DNA from: an uncultured bacterium
GTDB taxonomy: Bacteria; Bacteroidota; Bacteroidia; Chitinophagales; CAIODY01
Assembly: GCA_903857255.1 (NCBI GenBank)
Contig: CAIODY010000046.1
Span: 1-55,973 of the forward strand
DNA length: 55,973 nt
Direction: 5' to 3'
In this document: piece by piece, positions 5,168 to 54,100 of the stretch
How the letters are laid out: every line of letters begins with the position of its first letter
Position numbering within the stretch: the stretch's first letter is position 1
Program-made: the position numbers and the translations under genes
The notes under the pieces: model-generated
Seen by the model: the letters and a program-made list of their open reading frames with translations, nothing else
The model's database searches: none
Told to the model about the DNA's origin: nothing

Positions 5168-5188
5168 ACATTTTTTTAGAAAGTAGTG

Positions 5189-7279
5189 ATGCGATTGCTT
5201 TCAAAAACTCAATTATTTTTTCACGAAGCGCCACTCATTAGGGTTTTAATTCCACTATTGAGTGGCATTTTTTTTCAACTGCATTTTGAGTTTAACAATC
5301 CGCCGTATCCATTTATATTGCTGGTTTTCACAGCCGCTACTTACTTTATATTTCAACAAATTTCTTTAAAAAAACGATTTCAATTTTATGGGTTGAATGG
5401 ATTTTTTGTGCAGTGCATTTTTTTTTTGTTGGGAATTGTTATTACGCAATTGAATGACGAAACACAACAAAAAAACTACTACAAAAATTTAATCAGTCAC
5501 TCTGCTTTCGCCACTATTCGATTGTTAGAAAATCCAATTGAAAAAGCTGGCAGTTATAAAGCTTTAGCAGAAGTGAATAACATTGGCAATGAAAAAAGCA
5601 TTGGAAAAACGATTGTATATTTTGATAAAAAAAATTACAACAAACAATTTGTTTATGGTGATGAATTATTGATTCCAAATCATTTTACTGAAATTAAAAA
5701 TTCGGGGAACCCAGGATGTTTTAATTACAAATTTTCTTGCCTCACACAAGACATCACTCACCAAATATTTTTGCATGAAACCGAATGTGAGAAATTTAGT
5801 AATCGCTCCAACCCTTTCTGGAAAAGGCTTTGGCAGGTAAGAGATTCAACGCTTTCTATTCTCGAAAAAAATATTGTGCACGAAAAAGAAGTGGGTGTTG
5901 CACAAGCTTTATTAATTGGCTATCGCGATAATTTGGATAAAGATTTACAACAAGCGTATTCCGATACAGGCATTGTGCATATTCTTGCCATCAGCGGAAT
6001 GCACTTGGCTTTGATATTTGGCATGCTCAATTTTTTTCTTTCGTTTTTGGATAAAAAAAGGAAGACAAAAATTCTAAAATCAATCCTTGTACTGACCATC
6101 ATTTGGCTGTTTTCCTTGCTCACGGGCTCATCAGGTTCGGTGATTCGAGCAGCCGTGATGTTTAGTTTTCTGCAATTATCTACTTTGTTAAAACATAAAA
6201 CTTCTATTTACAATTCGCTAGCGGCTTCCGCTTTATTCATTTTGGTGATTGACCCGTATATCGCTGCTGATGTGGGTTTTCAGCTTTCTTACATTGCTGT
6301 TATCGGAATTGTTTCGTTGCAAAAATTTATTAAAAATTGGGTAACGGTTGATTTTTTTTATTTCAAAAAAATTTGGGATAATTTAATTGCCATCTCCATT
6401 GCTGCAGAAATAGTGGCTTTCCCCATTTGTTTATTTTATTTTCATCAATTGCCTAATTATTTTCTGTTAGCCAATTTGATTGCCATTCCACTTTCCACCA
6501 TTATTTTATATGCTGAATTGGGCATGATTTTTTTATCAGTCATGCAATTAAATTATTTAGCAAAATTAGCAGGCATACTTAATTACTGGCTAATAATGCT
6601 GATGAATAAAGGGATTGAGTGGGTTGATGACTTACCTGGCGCAGTTTGGAACGGATTGCAATTCAATATTTTTCAAATTGTTTTATTGTATGCAATCATT
6701 ATTTTTTTCATCGTGTGGCTGCTCAACAAAAAATCAAATCACTTGAAAATAGCCTTGGGATTGGTTTTGGTGTTTATAAGTTGGAAAATATTGGATGAAG
6801 TGGAAATTATGAGGCAGAAAAAAATAATTGTGTATGCCATTCCACATGGCTCTGCTATTGATTTTGTGGAAGGGAAAAATTACAGTTCGTTTAAAGATTC
6901 GTTGGTACAATCTAACCACATCATTCAAAATTTTCACTTAAAACCTGCTCGAATTTTATTCGGGTTAGCCAATGAAAAATCAATTAGCAATCCAACACAA
7001 TCAAATGAATTTACTTTTAACAACAACACAATTATTTATCTCGGCAAAGCAAATTTTGATATTCCAATTGACAACAAATCAACGAATGCAATTGTTATTG
7101 TAGCACACAATTCAATAAAAAATATGGATTCATTAGTTGAAAATTTGCATCCGAAAATGTTAGTTTTTGATTCTTCCAATTCAATTTATAAAACAAAAAA
7201 ATGGACTGATGAAGCTAATAAACTAAAAATTCCGATTTGGAACACTGCCCTGCAAGGTGCATTGGTGTTGGATTTGTAA
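5189..7279 (+). CDS. comEC: ComEC/Rec2-family competence membrane protein
   Basis: Multi-pass inner-membrane channel that moves single-stranded DNA into the cytoplasm during natural transformation. The N-terminal part (about residues 30-200) has hydrophobic helices and an OB-like DUF4131 region. The Competence domain follows, with the hallmark LLIGYRDNLDKDLQQAYSD and GIVHILAISGMHLALI segments (about residues 230-270), then further transmembrane helices. The C-terminal metallo-beta-lactamase domain of longer ComECs is absent or degenerate: the last 140 residues lack an HxHxDH motif. The frame also opens with GTG at 5186, but ATG at 5189 is more likely. Short ComECs are common in Bacteroidota, so truncation is not implied. 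Confidence 0.9.
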   Translation: MRLLSKTQLFFHEAPLIRVLIPLLSGIFFQLHFEFNNPPYPFILLVFTAATYFIFQQISLKKRFQFYGLNGFFVQCIFFLLGIVITQLNDETQQKNYYKNLISHSAFATIRLLENPIEKAGSYKALAEVNNIGNEKSIGKTIVYFDKKNYNKQFVYGDELLIPNHFTEIKNSGNPGCFNYKFSCLTQDITHQIFLHETECEKFSNRSNPFWKRLWQVRDSTLSILEKNIVHEKEVGVAQALLIGYRDNLDKDLQQAYSDTGIVHILAISGMHLALIFGMLNFFLSFLDKKRKTKILKSILVLTIIWLFSLLTGSSGSVIRAAVMFSFLQLSTLLKHKTSIYNSLAASALFILVIDPYIAADVGFQLSYIAVIGIVSLQKFIKNWVTVDFFYFKKIWDNLIAISIAAEIVAFPICLFYFHQLPNYFLLANLIAIPLSTIILYAELGMIFLSVMQLNYLAKLAGILNYWLIMLMNKGIEWVDDLPGAVWNGLQFNIFQIVLLYAIIIFFIVWLLNKKSNHLKIALGLVLVFISWKILDEVEIMRQKKIIVYAIPHGSAIDFVEGKNYSSFKDSLVQSNHIIQNFHLKPARILFGLANEKSISNPTQSNEFTFNNNTIIYLGKANFDIPIDNKSTNAIVIVAHNSIKNMDSLVENLHPKMLVFDSSNSIYKTKKWTDEANKLKIPIWNTALQGALVLDL

Positions 7280-23248: not shown

Positions 23249-24916
23249 ATGCTATCAAAATCTTTTGTGAAAATTTTATTTTTTGTTGTAATGATTTTTT
23301 CATTGCAAAAATCTTTTGCAACAAGCACAGCTTCTGCAAAAATTATTTACGAGCAATACGAAAATAACAAACTGCAAAAAGATAAAATCATCACGGTGAT
23401 TTGTAATTCAAATGCAGCTTCGATTTCAAATTCATCGGTTACTAACGAAAATTATTTTGTGGATTATGCAGCCCGAAACACAGTAAAGACGGGCATTTTC
23501 AATCAAAAAAATTATTCTGTTTTTACTTCGTTTGATTCATTGCCAAAGCCAACTACTACAAATGATACAGCAACAATTCTTGGATTTTTGTGTAAAAAAA
23601 TCACGTACAATATGTTTTCAAATTGCGTAGAAGTATGGTTCACAACGCAATCAAAATTTAAAGGAACGCCTTCCATGAACATTGTTCCTGATGGGTTGGT
23701 GTTGAAATATGTGATGAATGGCAGTAGAAAAATTATTGCAAAATCTGTCACTGAAACCAATGAAGAAATTTCTTCTTCGTCAAAAAATTTAATAAAAGTA
23801 AGTGATGCTGAATATGCTGCAATTCAAATTCAATCGAGGTTTACAACTATTCCTGTTTTTACAAAAGAGCAAATTAATTTTGACAATGAATTGAAAATTG
23901 AGAAAGCAGAAAGCTCAAACAAAACATATCATTTTGCAAAAGGCAATGTGATTTTAAAAAAAATAAAATTGCCTGAACACAGTTCGAAAGGAAGTTTTTT
24001 TGTGAAAATTACCGATTGGTCAAATGGTGATGCATACGACAGAGTTGGCTCTGTGTTTACATTCTCGGCTGATAAACAAAAATCAATGTTAGATGCTTTT
24101 GAAAATGGATTACAAGCAATTCCATTTTTTACAGATAGAAATAGAGAACATTATCAAGGTGCAATTGCAACCGTCGATTATGCTCCAAGCATTGAATTGA
24201 TGCGATTTTTCACTTCTTTTGGCGTAAATTATTTCAACAAAAAAAGAATCATCAAAGGCTATGATTGGGCTGATTCGGTTGTTTACAAGCAAGATGTTAC
24301 TTCATTAATTTCTTCGGAAGAAAAAGAAATTTGGTTGGGTGTTTATATCGGCAATTATGATAAAGGTGGTCATAAAGTTAGCTTGGAGCTTGACTTTTAC
24401 CCCGAAGAAGAAATGCCTGAAACTAAAAAATTTATTGCGCCGCTTTTTAGTACAGTGAATATTTTAGAAGCTGCTGGTCAAAATTATGGCAAACTTTTTT
24501 TGAACGATTCACTGAAAATGAATTTCGAAATCAATGATTCCATCACAGATTTGACAATGCTTTATGCCACAACTGGTCATGGTGGTTGGGGTGGTGGCGA
24601 TGAATTTAATCCGAAGTTGAATCAAATTTTTGTGGATGGAAAATTAGTTTTTGCTGCAACTCCTTGGCGAACGGACTGCGGCACGTATCGCTTGCTGAAT
24701 CCGGCTTCTGGCAATTTTCCTGACGGACTATCATCATCAGATTTTAGCCGTTCTAATTGGTGCCCAGGAACTTTGACAACCCCATATTTAATTCCACTAA
24801 AAAAATTATCGCTTGGTAAACACACTTTGCAAGTAGCAATTGACGAAGGAAAAAATGAAGGCGGTAGTTTTAGCCATTGGTGTGTTTCGGGTGTGTTGGT
24901 AGGCACGAAAAAATAA
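23249..24916 (+). CDS. Peptide-N-glycosidase F-type enzyme with N-terminal extension
   Basis: Secreted amidase predicted to release N-linked glycans from glycoproteins. Signal peptide residues 1-25. Residues about 25-190 are an extra domain with a GLPGLI-like look (ATILGFLCKKITYN, VEVWFTTQSKFKGTPS). The PNGase F jellyroll pair follows. The DAYDRVGSVF segment carries D264, aligning by eye with the catalytic Asp (D60) of PNGase F; HGGWGGGDEFNPK (E452) aligns with E206, and RTDCGTYRL and SNWCPGTL match the C-terminal domain. The 555-aa size resembles the longer PNGase F-II group rather than the 314-aa mature enzyme. It starts 74 bases after the receptor gene; shared glycan use is inference. Confidence 0.88.
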   Translation: MLSKSFVKILFFVVMIFSLQKSFATSTASAKIIYEQYENNKLQKDKIITVICNSNAASISNSSVTNENYFVDYAARNTVKTGIFNQKNYSVFTSFDSLPKPTTTNDTATILGFLCKKITYNMFSNCVEVWFTTQSKFKGTPSMNIVPDGLVLKYVMNGSRKIIAKSVTETNEEISSSSKNLIKVSDAEYAAIQIQSRFTTIPVFTKEQINFDNELKIEKAESSNKTYHFAKGNVILKKIKLPEHSSKGSFFVKITDWSNGDAYDRVGSVFTFSADKQKSMLDAFENGLQAIPFFTDRNREHYQGAIATVDYAPSIELMRFFTSFGVNYFNKKRIIKGYDWADSVVYKQDVTSLISSEEKEIWLGVYIGNYDKGGHKVSLELDFYPEEEMPETKKFIAPLFSTVNILEAAGQNYGKLFLNDSLKMNFEINDSITDLTMLYATTGHGGWGGGDEFNPKLNQIFVDGKLVFAATPWRTDCGTYRLLNPASGNFPDGLSSSDFSRSNWCPGTLTTPYLIPLKKLSLGKHTLQVAIDEGKNEGGSFSHWCVSGVLVGTKK

Positions 24917-26625: not shown

Positions 26626-29600
26626 ATGAAATTGAAAATTACACTTTTGTTTGTTGCAGTAGCTTTGATGCTTTGCTTGCAACAAACTTTTTTGATGTCG
26701 AATTCTGCTGCTCCGCCATCGGGGCATACAGGTGCAAATGGCACTACATGCGCCACTGCTGGCTGTCATACACCTGGTGTGGGTGTTGGTAATTTGAGTT
26801 ATACCATTAAATATCATGGCAATGGAAATGCTGTGAATAGCTATTTCCCCAACAATGTTTATGACATCACTGTAAAAATTACAGGCACTGGCAACGCAAC
26901 ACCAAAATTTGGTTTTGAAATGAGAGCTGAAGACGCTTCACACAATGTAAGAGGTGCATTTACAATTTTAAATTCATCTATTACTGGCTTTCCAACAGGC
27001 GGCGAAATTGGTCATGTGAATGCAACTACAACGGATAGTGTTTGGGCTTTTCAATGGACTGCACCGCCTTCTTTAGTTGGCAATATCAATTTTTATTTAG
27101 CAGGTAATTATGCAAATGGTGATGGTTTTTCAACGGGTGATGACATCATGACTACTTCGTTTACTTTAAAGCCTGCACCAATTACTTCACCAACTGCTAA
27201 TTTTTCATTATCAAGAGATACTGTATGTATCAATGTGCCAATAACAGCAACCGATTTACATACTGGTGGACCAATAAAAGTGTACTCGATGTATTTTGGT
27301 TCGTTGCCTACCAATTTTGGCAACACCACACCACCAGCCACTTTTACGCATACTTACACATCGCCCGGAACTTATTTGGTAACTTATGTAGTTTCTACCG
27401 ATTCGCCTATGAGTGGGCAACATGGTACTATTGATACGCTAACAAAAACTGTTTATGTTATTCCATATCCTGATGCTTCCACTTATTCAATTACTACACA
27501 AGGCTGCCCAGGTGGAATTGATACTTTGAAAATTTTAAACCCTGTGGCTGGTGTAACTTATACACCTAACTTTGGCACAAGTTCATTGATCGGAACTGCT
27601 GTGAATGGCGGTCCATATCCGTTACAGTTGCCCAACATAACTGGTCAATACACTTATTTTAGCACGACAGCAACGGGTTTTGGTTGCACATCGCCAGCAT
27701 TCAAAGATTCGTTGTTTATCAACAATTGTTCGCCGCCCAATGCCAACTACTCAATTTTAGACAGTTTTTCAAATGTGATAACCCATACGCCATGCAAAAA
27801 TACTGCTTATTATATTGCAGATAATTCGCAACAAGGCAGCAGTGCTATTATTTCATGGGTTTGGAATTTTAATGTTGGAAATAGTTCAACACCTCCCATC
27901 CCTTCATCAGCAACTGGGCAAGGACCTCATAAGGTTATTTTCCCTACTAATGGTACTTTTACTTTTTCACTAACCGTAACTGATTTGCAAGGCCAAACTA
28001 ATACATTCACACACGTGGAAGGAGTAAACCCATGTGGACCTTATTTGTTTATCCCAAGAATGCACCCTTCAACTACACCTTATCAAGCTTGTATTGGTGA
28101 TTCGATTTTTTTTAGCGACAATTCTTACGTGCCTACAATTCAATGGCATTGGGATTTTGGTGATGGTACAACTTCTAATGCAATTGGTGTAAATCATGCT
28201 TATACTAATGCTGCAACATATACTGTTGCAATGGCAGTAGAAGACGACTCGACTCACACATGGGACACAGTTTATAATACCATTATTGTAGGCTCAGCAC
28301 CGGCAGCATCGGCAGGAAGAGATACTTTAATTTGTGGTGGCAAATGTGTTACCATTGGCGCAGCACCACAAAATAGTGCGCTGTATTCTTGGACATCCAA
28401 CCCTGTTGGTTTCACTTCACATAATTCATCATCGTTGGTTTGCCCAACTGTAACAACCACTTATTATTTGGCTGCATCCAACCAAGCAGCTACTTGCTTT
28501 GCTTATGATACTGTAAAAGTGATTGTTGATAATCCGCCACCAGTGGTGCTTACAGCCAGTTCATTAAGCGAATGCCCTAATAATACGGATACTATTTATG
28601 CAACCCCTGACACATTAGCGCACTATGCTTTTTCTTTTAATGGCGGTGGCGTAATTGGCACACCTCCAAGTGCAGGTGGTCCGTATGTTGTAAGTTGGTC
28701 AACACTAAGCAACAAAACTGTAACCTGTACTGCTTCAACGCAACATGGTTGTGTTTCACACATAACACCTGTAATAGTTTCAGTGCATGCATGCAATCCA
28801 CCAATTGCAAAATTTTATCCACCTAATGGTGTATGTACTGGTGCTACTGTGGCTTTTAAAGATTCATCAACGGGTACACCCACCAATTGGTTTTGGAATT
28901 TTGGTGGTGGTGTAACGCCCGTACAAAGTTCGGCACAAAACCCAATTGTAACCTTTAACACAGCAGGGGTTCATGTTATCACTTTGTTGGTCAGCAATAG
29001 CGGCGGCTCTACAACCTATACGGATACGGTGATTGCCTACAATGCACCAAACTCAAACTTCAGTTATATCCACAACATTTGCGAAGGGTATAACACCATC
29101 ATCACCTATACGGGTAATGCTTCGCCAGCAGCAACCTACACATGGGGCTTCAATCCAGCAGGAACAGTGCTTCCGCCAGGAACTGGTCCAGGTCCTATTT
29201 ATGTAAGTTGGGGTTCGCCAGGCTCGAAACATATTAATTTGTTTGTAACCGAACATGGCTGTTCATCCATCATTAGTGATAGTATTGTGAATGTTCAAAT
29301 TAATCCAACAGCGAAATTCACCTACAATATTTTACCGAACACGGCTTATGTAACCTATATCAATCAAAGCTCTAACGCCACTTCCTATCAATGGGCTTTT
29401 GGTGATAATTCAACCAGTGTAGTTGCTAATCCGCCAACGCATAACTACATTCACAATGGTTCATTTACAGTTACATTAACTTCTACCAAAGGTTATTGCT
29501 CGAATGTTGATACACAAATTGTTGTGGTAAGCGGTGTAACAGGCATGGAAAATTTAACACCATCGCCTTATGGTTTGATTGTGTATCACAATGATATTTC

Positions 29601-29811
29601 GCAACAATTATTTGTGAAATGGACGGCAGATAATGGGCTTATAAAAAATGTTCAACTCTATAACATGAAAGGTGAATTAATTGATGAATTAATGGACACC
29701 AAAGAAAATTCTATCATTTTCAATACGGCTAATTTATCGGCAGGTTTATATTTAATGACGACAGTTTACAGCGATGGATTTGTTGAAACCCGAAAATGGG
29801 TGAAGCAATAA
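26626..29811 (+). CDS. PKD-repeat surface protein with choice-of-anchor V-like N-terminus and T9SS sorting domain
   Basis: 1061-aa exported protein. Signal peptide about residues 1-25. The first domain (about residues 25-185) carries PPSGHTGANGTTCATAGCHTPG, a choice-of-anchor-V/Reeler-like signature whose Cys-His motif is CATAGCH, that is C-x4-CH rather than the heme motif CxxCH. Then several PKD/Ig-like domains (for example IQWHWDFGDGTTSNA and TNWFWNFGGG) run to about residue 970. The last 90 residues (LQLYNMKGELIDELMD-type end) form a type-A T9SS C-terminal sorting domain, so the protein should be moved through T9SS and attached or released at the cell surface. Role probably adhesive or structural. 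Confidence 0.88.
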   Translation: MKLKITLLFVAVALMLCLQQTFLMSNSAAPPSGHTGANGTTCATAGCHTPGVGVGNLSYTIKYHGNGNAVNSYFPNNVYDITVKITGTGNATPKFGFEMRAEDASHNVRGAFTILNSSITGFPTGGEIGHVNATTTDSVWAFQWTAPPSLVGNINFYLAGNYANGDGFSTGDDIMTTSFTLKPAPITSPTANFSLSRDTVCINVPITATDLHTGGPIKVYSMYFGSLPTNFGNTTPPATFTHTYTSPGTYLVTYVVSTDSPMSGQHGTIDTLTKTVYVIPYPDASTYSITTQGCPGGIDTLKILNPVAGVTYTPNFGTSSLIGTAVNGGPYPLQLPNITGQYTYFSTTATGFGCTSPAFKDSLFINNCSPPNANYSILDSFSNVITHTPCKNTAYYIADNSQQGSSAIISWVWNFNVGNSSTPPIPSSATGQGPHKVIFPTNGTFTFSLTVTDLQGQTNTFTHVEGVNPCGPYLFIPRMHPSTTPYQACIGDSIFFSDNSYVPTIQWHWDFGDGTTSNAIGVNHAYTNAATYTVAMAVEDDSTHTWDTVYNTIIVGSAPAASAGRDTLICGGKCVTIGAAPQNSALYSWTSNPVGFTSHNSSSLVCPTVTTTYYLAASNQAATCFAYDTVKVIVDNPPPVVLTASSLSECPNNTDTIYATPDTLAHYAFSFNGGGVIGTPPSAGGPYVVSWSTLSNKTVTCTASTQHGCVSHITPVIVSVHACNPPIAKFYPPNGVCTGATVAFKDSSTGTPTNWFWNFGGGVTPVQSSAQNPIVTFNTAGVHVITLLVSNSGGSTTYTDTVIAYNAPNSNFSYIHNICEGYNTIITYTGNASPAATYTWGFNPAGTVLPPGTGPGPIYVSWGSPGSKHINLFVTEHGCSSIISDSIVNVQINPTAKFTYNILPNTAYVTYINQSSNATSYQWAFGDNSTSVVANPPTHNYIHNGSFTVTLTSTKGYCSNVDTQIVVVSGVTGMENLTPSPYGLIVYHNDISQQLFVKWTADNGLIKNVQLYNMKGELIDELMDTKENSIIFNTANLSAGLYLMTTVYSDGFVETRKWVKQ

Positions 29812-30634: not shown

Positions 30635-32521
30635 ATGGCGTACAAGAATTTACAACATTTTATTTTCGAGTTAGAAAAAGCTGGCGAATTAATTCGCATC
30701 AAAGAATATGTAAATCCAGTTTTAGAAATTTCTGAAATCACCGATAGAATTTCAAAATCAGAAAATAACAAAGCTTTGTTGTTTGAAAATACTGGAACAA
30801 ATTTTCCTGTTTTAATAAATTCTATGGGCAGCTATCGCCGCATGTGTATGGCTTTGGGCGTTGATGAATTGGACGATGTGAAAAATGAAATCGAAAATTT
30901 GTTTAAAAATTTGATGAAGCCCAAAGACAATATTTTGGAAAAATTGGCGATGCTGCCAAAGCTTAATCAAATTGCATCGTGGATGCCAAAAGTGAAAAAT
31001 GGTAGAGGCGAATGTCAGGAAATAATTGTTGAACAGCCCGATATCACTGCGTTTCCAATTTTAAAATGTTGGGCAAAAGATGGCGGCAATTTTATCACAC
31101 TACCCATTATTCATACCAAAGACCCGAACACGAATATCAGAAATGTGGGCATGTATCGGATGCAAATTTTCGATAAAAATTTAACAGCGATGCATTGGCA
31201 CAAACACAAAGTTTCGGCTCGTCATTTCAACGAATATAAATTGCTGGGCAAAAAAATGCCTGTGGCTGTGGCTTTGGGCGGCGACCCTGTTTACACTTAT
31301 GCTGCTACGGCGCCATTGCCCGATAATGTGGATGAATACATGCTTGCAGGGTTTTTGCGAAAGAAAAAAGTGGAGTTGGTGCGTTGCATTTCGCAGCCCG
31401 AAATTGAAGTGCCTGCCGATGCCGACATCATCATCGAAGGTTATGTTGACCCATCGGAAGAGTTGATTTGGGAAGGTCCATTTGGCGACCACACTGGCTA
31501 TTATTCGCTGCCCGATTGGTATCCAAAATTTCACATCACTGGCATCACACATCGCAGGAATGCTGTGTATCCAGCCACCATCGTGGGCATTCCGCCGCAA
31601 GAAGATGCTTGGATTGGTAAAGCCACCGAACGCATTTTTTTAGCACCAATTAAGATGACGATGATTCCTGAAATTGAAGATATGGAATTGCCGATGGAAG
31701 GTGTGTTTCACAATTTAACGATTGTGAAAATCAAAAAAGAATTTGCTGGGCAAGCACAAAAAGTGATGAATGCCATGTGGGGTGCAGGTCAGATGATGTT
31801 CAACAAAATTTTGGTGGTCGTTGATGGCGATATTGATATTCATGATTATGCTGCTGTTGCAAAATATGTTTCTGAAAATTGCAATCCAGCCAGCGACATT
31901 TATTTTAGTCAAGGACCAATGGATGTGCTCGACCACAGTTGCAGCAAAATGGGCTTTGGTGGCAAGATGTGTGTGGATGGAACGAAAAAATTTGATGAAG
32001 AAATTTTGAATGACTCGATGGCGAAATTGCATAATGACTCAATGAATACAAATGCAATTCTTGAAAAATTTTCAGAAATAAAAAATGCAAATTTTGCATT
32101 GTTGGCAAAAAATATTTCAGTGGCAATTTTTTCTATTGAAAAAAATAAACCGAATTATGTAAAAGATTTGGCGCAAAAAATTTGTGCATTGGATGAAATG
32201 CAACATGTGAAAACAATAATTTTCGTAGATGCAAATATTGATGTAAGCAGCATTGCAGATGTGTTGTGGCGCAGTTGCAACAATGCAGATGCAAGACGAG
32301 ATATTTATATTTCGGCTGAAAAATTAATTGTGGATGGCACAACCAAAACAAAACAGTTCGACAATTTCGACCGTGATTGGCCAAACATTTTAGTGCATGA
32401 TGATACGACAATAAAAGCAGTGGATGAAAAATGGAGCAGCCTTGGCTTGGGTGATTTTATTTCATCTCCCTCATTGAAATACAAAAATCAGATGTATGGA
32501 GATGAAGCTGTGATTGAGTAA
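30635..32521 (+). CDS. UbiD-family decarboxylase (probable menaquinone-pathway or aromatic acid decarboxylase)
   Basis: 628-aa prenylated-FMN-dependent decarboxylase of the UbiD superfamily. Motifs visible: GDPVYTYAATAPLPDNVDEYMLAGFL, EIEVPADADIIIEGYVDP, EGPFGDHTGYYS, and the C-terminal NPASDIYFSQGPMDVLDHS. Long versions (about 610-630 aa) with an extra C-terminal half are typical of Bacteroidota, often annotated as menaquinone biosynthesis decarboxylase. No ubiX, which would supply the cofactor, is in the window. The last 68 bases are duplicated at 33200-33270. Confidence 0.9.
   Translation: MAYKNLQHFIFELEKAGELIRIKEYVNPVLEISEITDRISKSENNKALLFENTGTNFPVLINSMGSYRRMCMALGVDELDDVKNEIENLFKNLMKPKDNILEKLAMLPKLNQIASWMPKVKNGRGECQEIIVEQPDITAFPILKCWAKDGGNFITLPIIHTKDPNTNIRNVGMYRMQIFDKNLTAMHWHKHKVSARHFNEYKLLGKKMPVAVALGGDPVYTYAATAPLPDNVDEYMLAGFLRKKKVELVRCISQPEIEVPADADIIIEGYVDPSEELIWEGPFGDHTGYYSLPDWYPKFHITGITHRRNAVYPATIVGIPPQEDAWIGKATERIFLAPIKMTMIPEIEDMELPMEGVFHNLTIVKIKKEFAGQAQKVMNAMWGAGQMMFNKILVVVDGDIDIHDYAAVAKYVSENCNPASDIYFSQGPMDVLDHSCSKMGFGGKMCVDGTKKFDEEILNDSMAKLHNDSMNTNAILEKFSEIKNANFALLAKNISVAIFSIEKNKPNYVKDLAQKICALDEMQHVKTIIFVDANIDVSSIADVLWRSCNNADARRDIYISAEKLIVDGTTKTKQFDNFDRDWPNILVHDDTTIKAVDEKWSSLGLGDFISSPSLKYKNQMYGDEAVIE
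32454..32521 (+). repeat. 3' end of the UbiD gene, copy 1 of a diverged duplication
   Basis: This 68-base coding tail ends the intact gene. A second copy at 33200-33270 matches at 54 of 65 bases before the stop, and beyond 32454 the similarity stops. Seven of nine changed codons are synonymous; the others are N to S and D to S. The intervening 678 bases hold a lipoprotein gene. Confidence 0.85.
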
Positions 32522-32522
32522 G

Positions 32523-33146
32523 TCAATTATGAAGGGATACGTAATAGCTTATTAAGTTGTAAATTTTTGTTCCGTTAACCGAAGAATCAACTACTTCGGC
32601 TTTTACAAATCCTTTTTTCGGACACCACCAAAGTCGTTTAAACCCACCAAGTGAATTTGGATAATACATTTGATAAACGTTTTGAAAGGTATCAATCGGA
32701 GTAATAAATTTTGAAATGATGTTTTCAATTTTTGCATTGTTTTGAACATCGCCAATCTTTCCATTAAATATTCCATCTGAAGAGGATTTGAGGTTTGTTT
32801 CTTCAATTCCAAAATTATCAACCTGCTCTAATATTTCTAAATGAAAATTTTTTCCCAAAACCAAATTGTGAGAAAAAACCACATTATATCCTTGATAGCA
32901 ATCAGAAGCACACCCCATTTGTGGATGTGAACAATTCTGTCCAAATACTGAATAATCAACAAAAATTGAATCAATCACAGAAGAGGCAGAATCCTTTAGA
33001 AGCCATTTGCCACCGTTAAAAAAAAATTGTTTGTAAAAAGCATTTATTGGATAAATTGTTCCAGTTCCCTCACAGCCATCGTTAGTTTGCTTTTTACAGG
33101 AAAAAAAGACAACCACAGTAAGTACAATCGAAAAAACAAATTTCAC
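32523..33146 (-). CDS. Lipoprotein of unknown function inserted behind ubiD
   Basis: 207-aa lipoprotein: signal then VVVFFSCKKQTND, lipid Cys near residue 17. The mature part has several further cysteines (GCEGTG; NCSHPQMGCASDCYQ; WWCPKKG) and an aromatic end. No family recognised. It is convergent with ubiD, one base from its stop, and the DNA behind it (33200-33270) is a second copy of the ubiD 3' end. That architecture suggests the gene arrived by insertion at the ubiD tail. Confidence 0.75.
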   Translation of the reverse strand: MKFVFSIVLTVVVFFSCKKQTNDGCEGTGTIYPINAFYKQFFFNGGKWLLKDSASSVIDSIFVDYSVFGQNCSHPQMGCASDCYQGYNVVFSHNLVLGKNFHLEILEQVDNFGIEETNLKSSSDGIFNGKIGDVQNNAKIENIISKFITPIDTFQNVYQMYYPNSLGGFKRLWWCPKKGFVKAEVVDSSVNGTKIYNLISYYVSLHN

Positions 33147-33199
33147 TTGATTAAAAGTTTATCGTTTCTCAAATTTATTAATTTTAATCAACAAATAAA

Positions 33200-33270
33200 A
33201 TTTTATTTCATCACCATCATTAAAATACAAAAGCCAAATGTATGGCAGTGAAGCGGTGATTGAAAAATAA
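33200..33270 (+). pseudogene. Relic second copy of the ubiD 3' end
   Basis: The + strand encodes SPSLKYKSQMYGSEAVIEK and a stop, against SPSLKYKNQMYGDEAVIE in the live gene: about 83 percent identical DNA with mostly synonymous changes, plus one extra codon. There is no start and no upstream similarity, so it is a fragment. It ends three bases before the convergent response-regulator stop at 33274. Confidence 0.85.
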
Positions 33271-33273
33271 TGC

Positions 33274-33909
33274 TTACACAATTTTATTTTCCAAAGCCTT
33301 GGCAACGGCTTCAGTAGCGGAGTGTACGTGCAGTTTGTCGTAAATACGTTTGAAATGTGTGTTCACTGTATTCCATGTAATGCCACAAGTTTCACCAATC
33401 ATTTTATAACTCATTCCTTTTACAAGTAATGATAAAATTTCTTTTTCTCTGTCTGTTAAATCAAAGGTTTGTAAAACTTTTGTTTCGGTGTTGGTTTTAA
33501 AATATTCTAAAACTTTTTTGGCAACAGATGGTGTCATTGGTGCACCGCCTTCTAACACATCTCTGATGCCATCAATTAATTTTATGGGTGAAGTTTTTTT
33601 CAAAAAATAACCATGAGCACCAACTCGAACGGCTTCAAAAATTTTATCTTCATCTTCAAAAACAGTTTGCATAATCACCATCACTTTGGGTGCATGTTTT
33701 CTTGCCAACATCAAACCCTCGATGCCGTTTACTTTTGGCATATCAATATCCATCAATAACACATCTGGTTGTAACTCTTTTATTTGCTCAACAATATTGA
33801 CACAATTTTCAAAAGTACCTACACAACGCATATCATGCGTTTGATTAATTAGCAATTCTAAGCCCTCTAATCTGCCTCTGTTATCATCGTAAACAATTAC
33901 TTTTACCAT
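33274..33909 (-). CDS. LuxR/NarL-type response regulator
   Basis: Receiver domain residues 1-125 with acidic pocket YDD (D8, D9), phospho-acceptor in LLMDIDMPK (D54) and the conserved Lys in GYFLKK. A C-terminal LuxR-type HTH follows (LTDREKEILSLLVKGMSYKMIGETCGITWNTVNTHFKRIYDKL). ATG 33909 (MVKVIVYDD) is the preferred start; ATG 33915 is also possible. It lies 67 bases downstream of the sensor kinase gene on the same strand. Together they form a propeller-sensor/LuxR two-component system. The targets are not identifiable here. Confidence 0.93.
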   Translation of the reverse strand: MVKVIVYDDNRGRLEGLELLINQTHDMRCVGTFENCVNIVEQIKELQPDVLLMDIDMPKVNGIEGLMLARKHAPKVMVIMQTVFEDEDKIFEAVRVGAHGYFLKKTSPIKLIDGIRDVLEGGAPMTPSVAKKVLEYFKTNTETKVLQTFDLTDREKEILSLLVKGMSYKMIGETCGITWNTVNTHFKRIYDKLHVHSATEAVAKALENKIV

Positions 33910-33976
33910 AGTCATCAAATGTATCTTCTTTTTTTCTGTAAATAAAAGCCTAATATTAGGTACAAAATTTTTTTGG

Positions 33977-39515: not shown

Positions 39516-39956
39516 TCAAAAATTATGTTTCAAGGAGACACCAACACCTACAACACCATTGCGAAGCGGAATAGGATTAATATTCCAAGCGGTAGTTTTA
39601 TTTAGTTGCAATAAATGATTATTCTTATTTAGGCTTGCTATGCTTATTATCGTTGCTGCCAATCCAAACCCTGCATTTATTGAACCAAGTACAATGTATT
39701 CTGGGTCGAGAGAAAGAATACATACTACACCCAACAATGTTTGTGTTGTTCCAGTAATTATTCCTGAAATTTGCAAAGGTTTTAACCGCATATTTTGTTC
39801 TTTGATATAATTCATGTTAGCAATTGAAGTACCTACATTTAACCCTATTAAAACTGATGAACAATAAACAAAACTTACAATTTCTTCTCCTTCAGCTTTG
39901 GCTTTATTTGAAAAAATGAAACAGATAATGAGTAACGCTAAAATTATTTTTTTCAT
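39516..39956 (-). CDS. Small envelope protein, paralogue of the neighbour at 39974
   Basis: 146 aa, signal peptide about residues 1-20 (SNKAKA), three hydrophobic glycine-rich segments, and an ending AWNINPIPLRNGVVGVGVSLKHNF-like strand with a terminal Phe, as in outer-membrane barrels. Clearly related to the neighbouring gene: both end LNK-x-T-x-WNIN-x-I-x-L and SLK-x-NF. They are likely a tandem duplicate pair. Function unknown. Cotranscription with the phosphoesterase gene is likely. Confidence 0.78.
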   Translation of the reverse strand: MKKIILALLIICFIFSNKAKAEGEEIVSFVYCSSVLIGLNVGTSIANMNYIKEQNMRLKPLQISGIITGTTQTLLGVVCILSLDPEYIVLGSINAGFGLAATIISIASLNKNNHLLQLNKTTAWNINPIPLRNGVVGVGVSLKHNF

Positions 39957-39973
39957 GATGAATATTTATTGTT

Positions 39974-40402
39974 TTAAAAATTATATTTCAGTGAAAAACA
40001 AACACCCATATTTCGATTGTTTAGTTGAATTGAATTAATATTCCAAGTAGTTTGCTTGTTTAATTTAAACAGACGGCTTTGCTTCTTTAAATCCCAAACA
40101 CTTAACCCAATTGTAACTAAAGCCAAGCTTGTTTCTATTATTCCATAGTTCAAATATTCTGGGTTTGAAATATCGCCGATGCCCATTGCTAATTGTATAG
40201 AACCAATTGCAAGCCCTACTGTTGGAACTAATTTGTGGTGCATTTGATTATCGAGCAATTGATTAACACAAGCTGCTGATATTGCTACATTGAAACCAAT
40301 AGTTGCTGATGTTCCAATATCATAAAAGCCCCTGTCCCAAGCTATTGATTGTTTTGCAAAAAGAAAATTTACTAATAGAAACGTAAAAAATATTTTCTTC
40401 AA
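39974..40402 (-). CDS. Small envelope protein, paralogue of the neighbour at 39516
   Basis: 142 aa. The TTG at 40402 is preferred as start because it opens a signal peptide (LKKIFFTFLLVNFLFAKQSIA); the in-frame ATG at 40540 would overlap the C-terminal coding region of nadE by 97 bases. Three hydrophobic glycine-rich segments and a terminal barrel-like strand ending SLKYNF. Same family as the downstream gene. It lies between nadE and the metallophosphoesterase. Function unknown. Confidence 0.72.
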   Translation of the reverse strand: MKKIFFTFLLVNFLFAKQSIAWDRGFYDIGTSATIGFNVAISAACVNQLLDNQMHHKLVPTVGLAIGSIQLAMGIGDISNPEYLNYGIIETSLALVTIGLSVWDLKKQSRLFKLNKQTTWNINSIQLNNRNMGVCFSLKYNF

Positions 40403-40443
40403 ATTGAAATGGTTTTGTGATTCAAAAATAGTTGTAATTTTTC

Positions 40444-42075
40444 TCAACTTAAATATTTTCCTACAATCGGCATTCGTCTGCCCACACCAAAAGCTTTTGA
40501 AGATACTCGTAAAATCGGCGGTGATTGATGACGTTTCCATTCGTTGCTGTTCACCATTTTCAAAACACGATTGACTAATGCTGCTTCAAATCCTTGTGCA
40601 ATCAAGTCTTTCGGACTTTTATGTTTTTCGATATACTGGTACAAAATTTTATCCAACACAGCATATTCGGGCAATGAATCACTGTCTTTTTGATTTGGTC
40701 GCAGCTCTGCAGATGGTGCTTTTGTTAAAATGTTTTGTGGAATAATTTCTGAATGGCGATTAATGTAATTACACAATTCAAACACTTGTGTTTTATACAC
40801 ATCGCCCAACACCGCCAAGCCGCCACACATATCGCCATAAAGCGTTCCGTAGCCAACCGCAGCTTCACTTTTGTTGGTTGTGTTCAATAAAATATAACCA
40901 AATTTATTACTGAAAGCCATCAACAAAACACCACGAGTTCGGGCTTGCAGATTTTCTTCGGCAACATTAAAAGGCAAATCTTTGAAGTAAGGTGAAAGCG
41001 TTTGTAAAAAAGCTTCGTAATTATTTTTTATCGGAACAATATCATAGCTCGTTCCTAAATTTTTACACAATTGCTCTGCATCGCTAATACTGTGAGAAGT
41101 AGAATATTCAGAAGGCAACAGTAATGAATGAACATTTTCTTTTCCCAATGCTTGTGCCGCCAAATACAGCACCAAAGCCGAATCTACACCACCACTCAAT
41201 CCTAAGATGGCTTTTTTGAAATTCATTTTTTCAAAATAATCTTTGATGCCGAGAATGAGAGCATCGTGTATTTGTTCAATTTTCAATTTACAAATATCAA
41301 TTTGCAATGAAGACAATTCAGATGAATTGATAATTGATATTTGCTCATTGAAGTATTGTAACTCCTCAACAATTTCACCTTCTGCATTTACAATAAGACT
41401 TCCGCCATCAAAAATAATTTCGGTTTGTGCACCAACCTGATTGCAATAAAATATTGGAATGTTGTAAGCCTGTGCATTGGCTTTCAGCACACGTTTGCGG
41501 TCTTCGGCATGGTCATAATCAAATGGAGAAGCTGATAAATTCAAAATCATTTCGGGATTAAATTTCATCAATTCATCCATTGGGCAAATGGTGTACAACG
41601 GATTGTTGTTGCCCAAATTCCACAAATCTTCGCAAATAGTTACAGCAATTTTTTTGCCTTTGTATTCAACAATTTCAAACGAATTATTCGGCTCAAAATA
41701 TCTGTTTTCATCAAACACATCGTAGGTTGGTAACAATGTTTTGTGAATGATTTTTTTGATTTCACCATCTGCCAAAAAATAAGCTGAGTTGAATAAATCT
41801 TTGCCTTCAATTTTCGGATTACGACTGGGGCAGCCCACCAACACTGCAATGCCAGCCGTGTGTGATTTTATTTCATCAATTGCATTTTCACATTTCTGAA
41901 TAAAATCTTCAAACTCTAAAAAATCACGAGGCGGATAACCACACACTGCCAATTCGCTAAATAGCACAATTTTTGCGCCTTGTGATTTTGCTTGATGAAT
42001 GGCATCCACAATTTTTTTAGTGTTGCTTTCAAAATTGCCGATGTGATAATTGAGTTGAGCTAATGCGATTTTCAT
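40444..42075 (-). CDS. nadE: Glutamine-dependent NAD+ synthetase
   Basis: 543-aa two-domain enzyme making NAD+ from NaAD with ammonia from glutamine. N-terminal CN-hydrolase domain: catalytic Glu in FSELAVCGYPPRD, Lys in KTLLPTYDVFDENRYF, Cys in TICEDLW. C-terminal ATP-pyrophosphatase domain: GLSGGVDSALVLYLA (P-loop) and later TTNKSEAAVGYGTLYGDM. ATG 42075 (MKIALAQLNYH) is preferred; the frame extends to 42117 but across a hairpin. Length fits bacterial glutamine-dependent NadE. The 5' leader carries a perfect 12-bp hairpin at 42090-42120. Confidence 0.96.
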   Translation of the reverse strand: MKIALAQLNYHIGNFESNTKKIVDAIHQAKSQGAKIVLFSELAVCGYPPRDFLEFEDFIQKCENAIDEIKSHTAGIAVLVGCPSRNPKIEGKDLFNSAYFLADGEIKKIIHKTLLPTYDVFDENRYFEPNNSFEIVEYKGKKIAVTICEDLWNLGNNNPLYTICPMDELMKFNPEMILNLSASPFDYDHAEDRKRVLKANAQAYNIPIFYCNQVGAQTEIIFDGGSLIVNAEGEIVEELQYFNEQISIINSSELSSLQIDICKLKIEQIHDALILGIKDYFEKMNFKKAILGLSGGVDSALVLYLAAQALGKENVHSLLLPSEYSTSHSISDAEQLCKNLGTSYDIVPIKNNYEAFLQTLSPYFKDLPFNVAEENLQARTRGVLLMAFSNKFGYILLNTTNKSEAAVGYGTLYGDMCGGLAVLGDVYKTQVFELCNYINRHSEIIPQNILTKAPSAELRPNQKDSDSLPEYAVLDKILYQYIEKHKSPKDLIAQGFEAALVNRVLKMVNSNEWKRHQSPPILRVSSKAFGVGRRMPIVGKYLS

Positions 42076-45135: not shown

Positions 45136-48100
45136 ATGAATCAAAACTACACCAAACCAATCAGCAGAATGTTGTTGCCTATGCTGATTGCAATTCTAAG
45201 TATGGTTTACCCTACTTCAAGTGTAAAGGCACAAGCAATGAGTGGGCAATATTATGTGCCTGGCGCATACCCAACGGGCTTTGCCACCATTAAGATGGCA
45301 GTAGATTCGTTGAATTCGTATGGTATTAGTGGAGCTACTACTATTAATATAGCAGCTGGCTATACGGAAACGGAAACGGGTAGAATTTTATTAACTACAA
45401 CTGGCACTTCTGCTAACCCGATTACGATTCAAAAAGACCCGGCTACTTCGGGTGCTAATCCTTTATTGTATTCATATACAGGTACGGTAACCTTTGCTAC
45501 GGCAGCGGCTATCACTACCCCTGATGGTATGTTTGCACTGAATGGTGTAAGCTATATCACCATCAACGGTTTAGATTTGCAAGAGTCTGCGGCTAATAAA
45601 AATCCTACCACTTGTATGGAATATGGTTATGGATTATTTAAAGCCAATGCAACAACTGGCTCAAGCAACAACAAAATTAAAAATTGCAATATCACATTAA
45701 ATAAGGCGAACTGGATTACTAATGGTGCTACAGCAGGATTGTTCAATCCGGTTGGGGGTGCAACAGGTATTGCATTAGTGCCATGTGCTTATAATACTTG
45801 TAATGCTGTAACAACAGTTACTGCATCTTCTGGTCAAAGTAGCAACAATACTTTTACCAGCAACGTAATTAACAATGTACAATGCGGTGTTTTGTTATCA
45901 GGTTTTGGCGGAACTCCAACCTCTGCATTAACTTACCAAGACCAAAATAATAGTGTAGGCGGAGGTTATTCGCCAACAGGTCGTACAACAACAGGAAATA
46001 CAATTACTAACTTTGGTGGTATTACTGCTAAAGTATGGCAAGCATCAACCGCAACTTCAGGTGGTACTATGAACGCATCAGTAGGTGATGTAGTAAAAGT
46101 TAGTTCTACTTTGTATTATCAATTAGTAACAGCAGGTACTACAGGTGCTACTGCACCATCGGGTTCGGTAGTAGGCACCAACTATACAGATGGAGGTGCT
46201 ACTTGGAAATTTTTAGGTGCAGCTATTAATGATGCAGCCGTATTAGTGGTTAACCAATGGAATGTTAATATTAATAACAATTACATTAATAACAACGTTG
46301 GTGGTGGTTCGGGTACAGGTGCACAAGGTGGCGCAGGTGTTAACAATCCTACTACAGTCCGTGCTGTTTGGTTATACGCAAGTGGCAATGGTTCGGGCGG
46401 AAATGTTCAAAACAATTCATTTAATATTAAAGCTGATGGTACTACTGGTAACTGTTGGGTGATTGATGCAGAAAATGGTCAAACTCAAGTGGCAGGTTTA
46501 ACGCCTAATTTGAATATTCAGTTTAATAATATTACTGGTAGCGGTTCATCTAATATGACCACTGGCAACTTCTGGCCTGTATTTACATCTTCGGCAGCAA
46601 CGAACGTTTATGTTAGATATGATACTGTTCAAAATTTTTCTTATTTAGGAACAGCCAGCACAAGTTCACCTTACCAATCCATGTTTTGCAATAACAATGG
46701 TGGTAATGCTGCTTGTAGCTATTATATAGATGGTAATTATGTAAACAATATCACTTATGGTACTGCTGTATCGGGTTCAGGTATTTTCAGTATAGTATCA
46801 TCACCTAACACAACAGGTTACATTAATCTATCTTGTTCGAGCAATTATTTTAATAACATTACCAACAACAATAATACATCAGCAACTATTTATGGTTTTT
46901 ATTTAGGTTATGCTACCACTTGGAATTACAACTACAACACCGTTACCAACATAAATTATGCAGGTACAGGCACGTTGTACTTAATTTACAATTACAACAA
47001 TGTTAATGCTGGTAATGGACCAGGTAATTTTATGATGGGTAATACCATTAACAATGTAGTTAGAAATACGCTAACCAGCACGGGTGCGACCTATGCCTAT
47101 TATACACCCTATGTTTATGGTAGTGAAATCATCAACAATGTGATTTCTAATTTCAAAACGCCTTCAAGTGGTGTATTAGCTGGTTTTTATGATGCTGGTT
47201 ATTATAGCCAACGTATTTTCAGAAATAATACTATTAGTAATTTCAGCACTACACCAGGGGGTGCAGGCGGTTTTTCTTTTTATGGTATTTATGAGGCTTA
47301 TGGTAGTAGTAGCAACACTTACCCTGATTCTATTGCCTATAATCAAATTTATTCTATTAATAGCACGGGTACAACAGGTGGTACCAATACAGCTACTTGG
47401 TATGGTATATATAATTCTGGTTCAGCGTCGCCTGGTCCGCCAAGTAATAAATATGTAATTGGAAATAAAGTATCAGATTTATCGTCGAACTCAACTGCTG
47501 CATTTACCATTTATGGCATGTATTTATATACCTATGGTGCAGATGATTATTATTTCAATAACTATGTGGGTGATATTCGTACACCCAACAATACCAGCAC
47601 TACTGGTATTTATGGTATGTATTTTAGTAGTTCTACTTCGTATGTATCTACAGCGCATGTGTATAATAATACGATTGGTTTATCGGGTACATCAACTGGT
47701 GCTACTTTTGGTACAATTGGTTTGTATCATATTACGCAAACATCATCTTACCCTACGGTAGGTTTGTTAGATTTGCGAAATAATATTATTGTCAACAACT
47801 GTACACCAAAAGGTTCTGGTTTGGCAGTGTGTTATCAAAGGTCAACAAACTCAACAGCCAATTATGCTACAACATCAGCTAATAACTGTTTTTATGCTGG
47901 TACGCCTTCGGCTACTAATATAATCTACACGGATGGGGTTAATCCTAAGCAAACATTAAGTGCTTTCAAATCGTATGTAGCTGGTGGCAGAGAAAATAAC
48001 TCTATCACGGTTAATCCAACATTCTTGAGCACGACTGGTGCAGCCGCTACTTTCTTACACATGAGTACTACCCAATCATTAATTGAAAGTGGTGGACAGT

Positions 48101-51100
48101 CAATTCTTCCAGTAACTAAAGATTTTGATGGCGATATCCGTCAAGGTCAAGTAGGTTATCCAACACAAGTAAATGGCGGTGGTTCAGCACCTGATATCGG
48201 GGCTGATGAATTTGATGGTATTCCATTCTTAATTAATGCTGCTATTTCTTATGTGTCACCTATCCCGATTATTAACTCGGCTGGTAATCAAACCGTGGTT
48301 GTGAACATAACTAATACATTGAGCACACCCATTACGAGCATAACTATTAATTATACTGATGGTATTATGGGTTCGCCAGTTAGTCAAACTTTTACAGGCT
48401 TCACTTTAACAACTGGTCAAAATCAAAACTTTAGTTTCACTACACCTTATTATTTGGCAAGTAGTGTTACTTTAACTACAACTATTACAGCTGTAAATGG
48501 TACAGCTGGCGATGGTAACCCATTAGATGATGTGGCTTCGCAAGCTTTATGTTTATCATTGAATGGTAATTATACCATCAATGCCAGTGGTTCGGGTTCT
48601 ACCAATTTCACTTCATTTAACAATGCGGTTGCTGCTTTAACTAATTGTGGTGTTAGCGGTCCGGTTAAGTTCACGGTGGCTGCTGGTACTTATACTGAAC
48701 AGGTTTCTATTCCTGCTATCAGTGGTGCTTCAGCAACTAATCAAATCACATTTGATGGTGCTACTAACAGCCCAAGATTATATTTCAATGCTAACACAGC
48801 GGCATCTTATCCTACTTTACAATTGAATGGTTGTAGCTATGTGAATATTAAAAATATTAGAATCTGGAGTGCAGGTACAACCAATGGTTTTGGCGTATTG
48901 GTAACTAACAATGCACAATATGATAGTTTGGTAAACGATTCGATAATGGTGAATATGGCTGCTACAAGTTCTACAACATCAGCATTATGTTTTTCGGGCT
49001 CAACTACTTCGCCTACTACTACGGCTACAAATGGTAGCAATATCATTACGAAAGGTTGTACCATGAGCGGTGGTTATTATTGTGTTTGTAATTATGGTAA
49101 CTCAACTGGTGGCACTACTTATAATACTAATAATCAGTTTATCAATTGTAATATCGTTGATTTTTATGTTTATGCATTGTATAATGTTTATTCACAAAAT
49201 ACAATTGTAAGCGGTTGTACTATTCAACGGTTGAATCGAACTTCAAGTAGTACTGCTTATGGTTGTTATTTTACAACAGGTTCAATAGCTTGTCAGTTTT
49301 ATAACAATACTATTACCAATTTATTTGGCAATGCAACTTTAAGAGGCTTAGGTTCTTCTACTTATTTGTTGGCGAATGTGTATGCACCGCCAACAGGCAG
49401 TGAGAATAAATTTTACAATAATATAGTTTCAAAAATTCAAACCAACGGAAGTATTTATGGCATTTATGCTTATGTAGCTAATTGTCAGTTTTATCACAAT
49501 ACTATCTTGTTAGATGATTCTGTTACGGCTACCAGTGGTGCTACTTATACCGTATATAACTATTCTAACTCTACTACAACACAAATCAGAAACAACATTT
49601 TTTATGTAACTCGTGGTGCATCTACTTATTCAGGAACCAGATATGGTTTTTATGAATATGCTATCAACAATGCTGACTACAATGATATATTTGTAGGCGG
49701 ACAAGGAACAGGACCCAAATATGTGGCTTACAACTACAGTACTTCAGCTACTTACGGTACTTTAGCTGCCTGGCAGGCAGCTTCGGGCGCTGATTTGCAC
49801 AGTTCTTCAGCAAATCCATTATTCACATCAACAGGCGGTACAGGCAGTGCAGGTACACAAAACTTAAAACCAACTGCGGCTGCAATTAACTTTATGTGTC
49901 CTAATGTGGGTGTTAATTTTGATATTACTGGTGCTGCACGTAGCCCAATAGCTACTAACCCAGGTGCTTATGAATTTACATTGCCTGGTTTAGATGCTGC
50001 TATCAGTTATGTAGCACCTGTTTTCCCATTTTCAGTTGGTAATGCAACGGTGCAAGTAGCTGTTAATAATAATCGTGCTACTACTATTACTTCATTAAGT
50101 ATATCTTATACTGATGGTTCTACAGTGGTTACGCAACCCTTTACTCTTAGTTTGGCTGGTGGTAGTAACACTACCTTATCGTTTACTACACCTTATAATA
50201 TTACTGGTGGTGGCTATTTACGTGCTTATATCAATTCGGTAAATGGTACTACAGATGCCAGCCAATCCAACGACAGTACCGCTAAAACTACTATTTGTTT
50301 AAGCTATGCAGGTGCTTATACCATCAATAAATTGGCTGCACACAGCAGTACTAACTTTACTAGCTTTACCGATGCTGCCTCTAGCTTAGCTTGTGGTGGT
50401 GTTACAGGTCCTGTAACTATCAGTGTATTAAACGGACCTTATTTTGAAAGAGCTGATTTTGTGGCAGTTTCGGGTACTTCGGCTACCAATACAATTACTA
50501 TCAACGGTAACAACGACTCTTTGAAATATGATGCATCGGTGGGTGCTTATGCTACTTTGAATTTAATTGGCGTAAGCTATATGACTGTTAAAAACCTGAA
50601 TATTAAATGTACAGGTGCAACCAATGGTTTTGGCGTTCATTTTAAAGGTGGTAATTACAACACGGTTTATAATTGCAATATTATAGCACCAAGATATAGC
50701 AGCACTACTGCTGCTGGTGTTCAGTTTGGTGGTAGCGGCAATAGCTATTCATCTGGTGACGATGCTGGTCAACACAACACGGTTCGTAAATGTCATATCT
50801 ACAATGGTTATTGGGGTGTAGTGAACTATGGAAGTAGCAGTACACCAACTACCTCTAATCAATATTCAACGGTGGATAGCTGTACGATTCAAGATTTCTA
50901 TTACTATGGTGTTTACACTTACTATCATGACCACATGACGGTATCAAACTGCGATGTTTCTCGTCCATTGTATGCACCAACTAGTGGTTATGGTATCATG
51001 ACTGGTTCGGGTGCAACTAACGATAGAGTATTTAACAATAAAATACATAATTTATTTGCTGCTTCACCAAGCGGAACAAACACAGCTTATTGCTTGTATG

Positions 51101-54100
51101 AGGTAGCTGCGGCAACACTTGGTAATGAAAACTGGGTATATAATAATGCAATATATGGTATCGAAACACAAGGTGGTTCAATATATGCTGGTTATTTATC
51201 AGGACCATCGTATTTGAAATTCTACAACAATACTATTAATTTAGATGACAGAAATGCTACAGGTTCTGGCTCTACTTATGGTATTTATTGCTCAGGCTCA
51301 ACAGGTGTGGATGTAAGAAATAACTTAGTAAGTGTTACTCGTGGTTCGGCTACGGCAGGTGGTTATAGCGGTCTTGCTGTTGGTTTGTACTACTCTTCTG
51401 TTCCAGCTGTGGCTGATGATTATAATGTGGTATATGAAAATAGCAATACAACAGCTACTACAACGGCAAGTGAAGTTTACAATGGAACTTATGTTACTAT
51501 GGCAAGTTTCAAAGCATCTAACCCAACAAAAGAAGTACATAGCGTTGGTGGTTACAATCCATTCTTTATTTCTTCAACTGTGCCAATTCCACAGTCGCCT
51601 TATGTAGATAATAAAGCTACAACAGCGGTGGGTTCTTCTATTACATATGATATTACAGGTGCTGCACGTAGCTTAACTACCCCTGATGTGGGTGCTTACG
51701 AATTTGCACCACCAGCATCAGATGCAGCTATCACATGGATTGCACCAGGTCATCCGGTATCAGCAGGTAATAACAGCATTACTGTTCAATTAACTAATAA
51801 TGCGTTTAATACAGATTCTTCTTTCCATTTAAGTTATTCTGATGGAACAAATATATATGGTCAACGTTTCTCAGGTTATTTATTGACTAATCAACAATCA
51901 GCTAATATTACGTTTACAGTTCCTTACAACTTTGCAACTAATGTTACTTTAAGAGCTTGGATTGATTCGGTAAATAGTAAAAAAGATGCTAACCAGTTAG
52001 ATGATACTACCGCTAAACAAAGTTTCTGCTTAGGTATGTCAGGTATCTATACTATTAATTCTGGTGCAGCTACTAACTATTCAACAGGTGGCACCAATTT
52101 CCATTCATTTACCGATGCCTTCAACCAATTAAGCTGTAGCGGTTTGGCTGCTGCAGTAACATTAAATGTGGTGGCTGGTAGCGGTCCATACACTGAACAA
52201 TTAGCAGTATCTGCTATTTTAGGTGGTTCTGCAACCAATACATTAACTATTAATGGTAATGGTGAAACGTTGCAGTATAATGCAAATTCGGGAAATTGTG
52301 CAACAGTTCGATTTACAGGTGTTACTTATATGACAGTGAACAACTTGAACATTACTGGGTTGAATGCTACTTATGCAATGCCTTTGATTATATCAAGTGG
52401 TTGTAATTACAATAACTTCAACAATTGTATAATTACTTCAAGTACTAACACCACTTCATCATCATCTATTGGTGTCGCATTTGCTAATTCTACCACTTCT
52501 TATTCTACTGGTTGTAATGCTAGCTACAATACATTTAATGGTTGTACTATTAAAGGTGGTTATATGGGCGTTACTATTTATTATGGAGGTTCTACAACTG
52601 CGCCATATATTACTGGTAATGCAACGGGCAATAGCTTTTTGAATTGTCATCTTACCGAGTTTTATTATTATGGCTTCTATTTATTGTATCATGTTGCCAC
52701 TACAGTTTCTGGTTGTAATATCGATAGACCAACCAATGCTAACGTAAGTAGTTGTTATGGTATTTTGTGTGAATATACTTCAGGTACTACAATTAAAGGA
52801 AACTGGATACACAATGTATTTGGTGGTTTATCAACTACAAATACTAATAGTTTCTATGGAATCTATATGTATTCACAAGCTAATCAACCTTCAAGCCCGA
52901 ATAATGTGTACAACAATATTATTTCAGACATTTATTCTGGAGGTGCTATTTATGCTATGTATGTGTATTACAACTCTGATTTGAATGTATATCACAACAC
53001 TATTTCTATTGTTGACCCTAATAGTGCTGGTGGTACTGTTTATGGTATTTACGCTTACTATCCAAGCAGTTCTAATTATTATATTGCCAACAATATTATC
53101 AATATCAACCGTGGTGGTCCAGGAGGAATTTATGGTATTGAACCTAGTAGTTCAAGTTTACCAATAAGTAACAATAATGATATTTATATCGGAAGTGCAG
53201 GTACGGCAACTAAATATGCAGTTTATGATTACAGTACTTCGACTGGTTATGCAACCGTGGCTGCAGCTCAAGCAAATGGTTTTGAATCAGGCAGTATCAG
53301 TGCTGACCCTATTTATACTAATGTAGGGGTTAAGTTTACACCAACCAATTATTTTGTTGATAACAAAGGTTCGAATGTAGGGATTACTAATGACTATTAT
53401 GGAACTACAAGAAGCTTAAGCACACCAGATGTCGGTGCTGTTGAATTCAGCATTCCACAATTCGATGCAGGTGTAGTGGCTTTGGTAAATCCAGGTACAG
53501 GTGGTTGTTACGCTTTATCTCAACCAGTAACTTATACTATCAGAAACTGGGGTTGGGATACCATTCGTTTTGCTACTAAACCTGTTACAGTAAACTGTAC
53601 TGTAACTGGTACTACCAATACTACCTTATCAGGTACTATTAGCACTGGTAAATTAGCGCCGGGTGCTCAAACGAATATTACTTTGTCCAGTAATTTAACG
53701 ATGTCATCAGCTGGTGGTACTTATACCATGTCTGCAAATACAGTCATGACAGGTGATGGTAAAGCAAGTAATGATTCATTAAATAATCAGGTTATTAATT
53801 CTTCTCCGATTTTACCAAATGCGCCTACTGCAACGCCTTCAACACAATGTGGTTATGCTATTCCAACTGCTTCGGTTGCAACGGCAAATGGTACATCTGG
53901 TCCATTATTCCAATGGCATAATTCACCATATTTGGGTGGTGGTGTTATTCAAACACCTCCTTATGGTTCTTTATATACTTATTACTCTAATAATTTTAGT
54001 TCGGCTACATTAACCAATTCATCATTGGCTGGTTCAGCTGCTATTAGTGGTGGTATATTAACCTTACAACCTTTATCAACCAGCGTTGCAGGCGGATTTA

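Follow-up and report, generated by a model that had tools for sequence, protein, structure and literature searches.

The 3' end of ubiD occurs twice in the window (the whole stretch of 55,973 nucleotides that was analysed), and a single lipoprotein gene lies between the two copies. We consider it likely that this arrangement arose by a one-sided homologous insertion from a related bacterium, which would have brought in a foreign ubiD tail together with the lipoprotein gene and left the old tail behind as a remnant. The locus consists of:

30635-32521, plus strand: ubiD, intact gene for a UbiD-family decarboxylase of 628 aa with the Pfam UbiD N, Rift-related, and C domains
32454-32521, plus strand: proximal ubiD tail, probably an imported copy, now used by the gene
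32523-33146, minus strand: lipoprotein gene, complete, 207 aa, lipobox FFSC
33147-33199, no strand assigned: stretch upstream of the lipoprotein gene, up to the right insert junction at 33199/33200
33200-33270, plus strand: distal ubiD tail, apparently the remnant of the resident gene end
33274-33918, minus strand: LuxR-type response regulator gene (Pfam Response_reg and GerE)

The 746 bases of the insert comprise a ubiD tail, the lipoprotein gene, and the 53 bases upstream of the latter. Its left boundary falls within ubiD, the proximal tail being the homologous ubiD end. Each tail forms a tight convergent pair with a gene of its own. At the proximal junction, the TAA of ubiD is separated by one base from the stop codon of the minus-strand lipoprotein gene (TAA G TCA), and at the distal junction, three bases lie between the TAA of the tail and the stop codon of the minus-strand response regulator gene (TAA TGC TTA). 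A first-pass annotation of this DNA had described a ubiD gene that keeps a working end and a single minus-strand lipoprotein gene between the tails; both descriptions were borne out, by the full-length UbiD with all three of its domains and by the open reading frame listed above. A scan for sigma-70 consensus sequences yielded matches at chance level.

The last 64 bases of ubiD ahead of its stop codon (32454-32517) recur at 33200-33263 in the same orientation and frame, at a spacing of 746, with 54 of 64 positions identical (84% over 64 bp). This agreed with the recurrence that had been noticed at 33200-33270 in the first-pass annotation. When ubiD was compared by BLAST with the downstream 23.5 kb, the tail repeat was recovered with E = 1.2e-14. 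Both copies begin with the same 13 bp (ATTTTATTTCATC), and the longest exact word that they have in common measures at most 14 bases. Nine codons differ between the tails. As counted before, seven of these changes are synonymous (proximal/distal: TCT/TCA, CCC/CCA, TTG/TTA, CAG/CAA, GGA/GGC, GCT/GCG, and GAG/GAA), the other two being AAT/AGC and GAT/AGT. In simulations with 11 random changes per trial, none of 20,000 trials gave a pattern as conservative as this (two or fewer non-synonymous codons). The codon pattern thus favors the earlier claim of recent coding function and suggests that both tails were evolving as coding sequence until recently.

The distal copy carries one additional Lys codon and then terminates with TAA at 33268-33270. 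Because an in-frame TAA (33196-33198) directly precedes it on the 5' side, it is not translated within UbiD. It is a dead remnant and no longer a gene end in use. Similarity to ubiD was not detected left of 33200, either in the repeat search or by BLAST, and a foldback at the distal tail did not reach significance (z -1.07).

The locus was compared with those of related bacteria. G001, a genome of the same genus, encodes a UbiD of 91% identity; in G002, also of the same genus, ubiD is found on two contigs (identities of 83% and 76%). Both have a single tail and lack the lipoprotein gene, which was not found elsewhere in the family either, three sister-genus genomes included. Among 80 ubiD loci from other genomes, inspected over the available downstream sequence of up to 4 kb, none had a credible second tail. 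That relatives have neither a second tail nor the lipoprotein gene supports the earlier proposal of a cassette that carried a related ubiD tail. A 48-bp match in G002 (C45) falls in AT-rich, unrelated sequence and was dismissed as fortuitous.

The lipoprotein itself had no Pfam match. Searches for the insert and the lipoprotein in the family, in 396 genomes of the order, and in 395 genomes of the class returned remote lipoprotein relatives only, and no related insert was present in phages, plasmids, or viral contigs. In the genome under study, which comprises 2.97 Mb in 134 contigs and has Chitinophagales metagenome assemblies as its nearest named relatives, neither the insert nor the lipoprotein gene was found a second time. 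The remote relatives are lipoproteins of about 220 aa from the same class. Since a few of them align over most of the length, the gene looks like an ordinary, complete one.

Downstream neighbors of ubiD differ among the species, indicating that this region was rearranged in each of them. In G001, the gene after ubiD resembles a 4-hydroxyphenylpyruvate dioxygenase gene, judged from sequence alone; META, kinase, and regulator genes are grouped there, with a convergent COX15-like gene next. In G002, the first gene downstream of ubiD is convergent with it and encodes a large secreted protein; META and YebC genes come next, and these two also lie past the regulator and kinase genes in the window. 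From the synteny with G002 and the 3-bp junction, we infer that ubiD and the response regulator gene were ancestral convergent neighbors, although the other downstream neighbors of ubiD in G001 and G002 speak against this. A strain carrying the exact empty site was not found.

Upstream of ubiD, two further differences from G001 were observed. A PKD-domain protein encoded upstream of radC (26626-29811, plus strand) is 51% identical to its G001 counterpart (L091, 4531-7770, minus strand), and its neighbors are 88-94% identical between the two genomes; it may be a secreted protein that evolves fast or has been exchanged while its surroundings stayed conserved. Between radC and ubiD, G001 contains an additional gene of ~125 aa (L091, 3097-3474, minus strand) that is missing from the window and whose product, going by its sequence, resembles a PIN-domain toxin.

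Which tail belongs to the recipient was assessed by comparison with G001. In alignments that span 64-66 bases and involve small numbers, the distal tail was identical to G001 at 60 of the final 66 positions and the proximal tail at 56 of 66; three-way site patterns placed the distal tail with G001 at 6 sites and the proximal tail at 2, and synonymous codon differences from G001 amounted to 4/20 in the distal tail, compared with 7/19 in the proximal tail and 99/502 across the gene. A suffix scan, performed post hoc, revealed unusual divergence from G001 in the final 39 codons of ubiD (17/39 vs. 125/562; permutation p about 0.01). This excess seems to start near 32402, some 50 bp ahead of the repeat. 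The signal weakened when the distal tail was substituted for the proximal one (p 0.20), and it was not seen for control pairs. Because the comparisons with G001 and the tight junctions agree in direction, the resident ubiD end seems to be the distal tail, and the proximal tail is probably the imported end that now serves the gene. The foreign tract probably begins upstream of the repeat, at about 32402 and at the latest at 32454. The first-pass annotation had asked which tail matches relatives and had considered a replacement of the original tail by an imported one. The comparison points to the distal tail, in keeping with such a replacement, the old end having been displaced while the proximal tail is in use. 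The "cassette with a related tail" and the "tail replacement" can be read as a single event.

This event would have started from an ancestor in which ubiD and the response regulator gene formed a tight convergent pair, with the present distal tail as the end of ubiD. The donor was probably an unsampled related bacterium in which ubiD and the lipoprotein gene were directly convergent, an arrangement suggested by the 1-bp convergent junction; a donor genome was not found in the order or class samples. Homology near the 3' end of the resident ubiD would have let the incoming DNA recombine with that gene. On its other side, ~53 bp ahead of the start of the lipoprotein gene, this DNA would have been joined inside the resident tail, at what is now position 33200, without long homology. 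The outcome would be a full-length UbiD with a foreign tail, an extra lipoprotein gene, and a stranded, dead old tail. With respect to the route of entry, DNA uptake is plausible because comEC is encoded in the window (5186-7279) and dprA in the genome, but ComEC and DprA are widespread, and their presence does not prove transformation.

Some integrative elements insert at the 3' ends of protein genes and supply a replacement end, and the first-pass annotation had pointed out a likeness to them. Accordingly, the insert could be a minimal non-autonomous element, i.e. a small circle that carried the lipoprotein gene and an attachment site made of the ubiD tail and that a recombinase integrated in trans. 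We regard this as unlikely. The topology is that of gene 3'-end elements, with a new end on the near side, cargo, and the old end on the far side; direct repeats derived from the gene end (64 bp, 84%) flank the insert and open with identical bases, and five integrase-like genes present elsewhere in the genome could have acted in trans. In contrast to such elements, the identical core comprises only 13 bp and there is one cargo gene. Integrases or transposases were not found among the window genes scanned, as had already been noted for integrases, and the insert itself holds nothing but the lipoprotein gene. Nor does it recur: the genome is without a second copy, phages, plasmids, and viral contigs are without a relative, and none of the 80 other ubiD loci bears a similar insertion. 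The excess divergence, which seems to start upstream of the repeat, fits homologous recombination better than a precise event at an attachment site. The comparison with such 3'-end elements was thus not supported.

A duplication within the genome is distinctly unlikely. On this reading, the tail would have been copied within the lineage, either around the lipoprotein gene or along with it, before both copies diverged. The failure to find a donor is compatible with it, and the tails (54/64) differ about as much as the ubiD genes of sister species (89% identity), so that an old event in the lineage is conceivable. An untranslated copy, however, would not collect nearly only synonymous changes unless almost all of them had hit the copy in use. 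In addition, it is the distal copy that is nearer to G001, and the duplicate would have had to land by chance 3 bp from the regulator stop.

Unlikely to a similar degree is an assembly artefact, in which the contig would fuse two strains, one with ubiD and the lipoprotein gene and the other with ubiD and the regulator gene as convergent pairs. The genome is fragmented and probably metagenome-derived, and both alleles would then be real, albeit in different strains. Against this, the join at 33199/33200 offers no shared word long enough for assemblers, given the short exact words common to the tails and the lack of any left of 33200, and a chimera would require two joins 750 bp apart.

That the locus records a recombinase-less single-gene cassette moving between species by means of a replacement end for the adjacent gene, with conserved gene ends as portable homology handles, is very improbable. 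The first-pass annotation had proposed looking for other lipoprotein genes behind duplicated gene ends, and none was found in a survey of 1,207 open reading frames over 1.2 Mb, sampled from this genome and relatives. The ubiD locus was the sole case of a tail-only duplication enclosing a gene. The remaining matches were local tandem repeats, tandem paralogues, and one 26-bp match. Two adjacent minus-strand genes of the window without Pfam matches (39516-39956 and 39974-40540), the 3' ends of which are 74% alike over 72 nt, are probably tandem paralogues.

Two other genes of the window deserve mention. A reading frame that stays open for at least 3,612 codons (45136-55971, plus strand) continues past the contig end and contains 91-nt internal repeats at 48806 and 50546; its product is probably a giant protein of repetitive sequence, either secreted or located at the surface. 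A gene at 23249-24916 (plus strand) encodes a PNGase F-like protein in which a PNGase F-II N-terminal domain accompanies the N- and C-terminal domains of N-glycanase.

For the one-sided homologous insertion favored here, a RecA-dependent kind of event, two known routes come into question. In homology-facilitated illegitimate recombination (HFIR), one end of a linear DNA molecule is joined through homology and the opposite end illegitimately; alternatively, the DNA is circularised and then integrated by a single crossover (PMC3240628). HFIR is slightly favored, because the foreign tract appears to start upstream of the repeat and a circle with the 64-bp tail alone could not have brought it. By either route, homology would have anchored one end of the incoming DNA, and the other would have been joined without long homology. 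The duplicated gene end beside the insert has a counterpart in an Escherichia coli assay, where the common product, formed by the circle route, carried 109-950 bp of the target gene end in duplicate next to the inserted DNA (PMC3240628). Unlike in that assay, the event proposed here would be a natural one, deduced from the scar it left. The duplication is also shorter, at 64-71 bp, and its copies differ from those of the assay in being only 84% identical, which we attribute to a donor of another species. The scar is unusually legible, as the resident and the foreign allele of a gene end stand side by side, and it illustrates how a single gene may be gained beside a conserved gene without the machinery of mobile elements. 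In other respects, the locus would reflect ordinary genome evolution and a known kind of inter-species recombination rather than a new type of mobile element.
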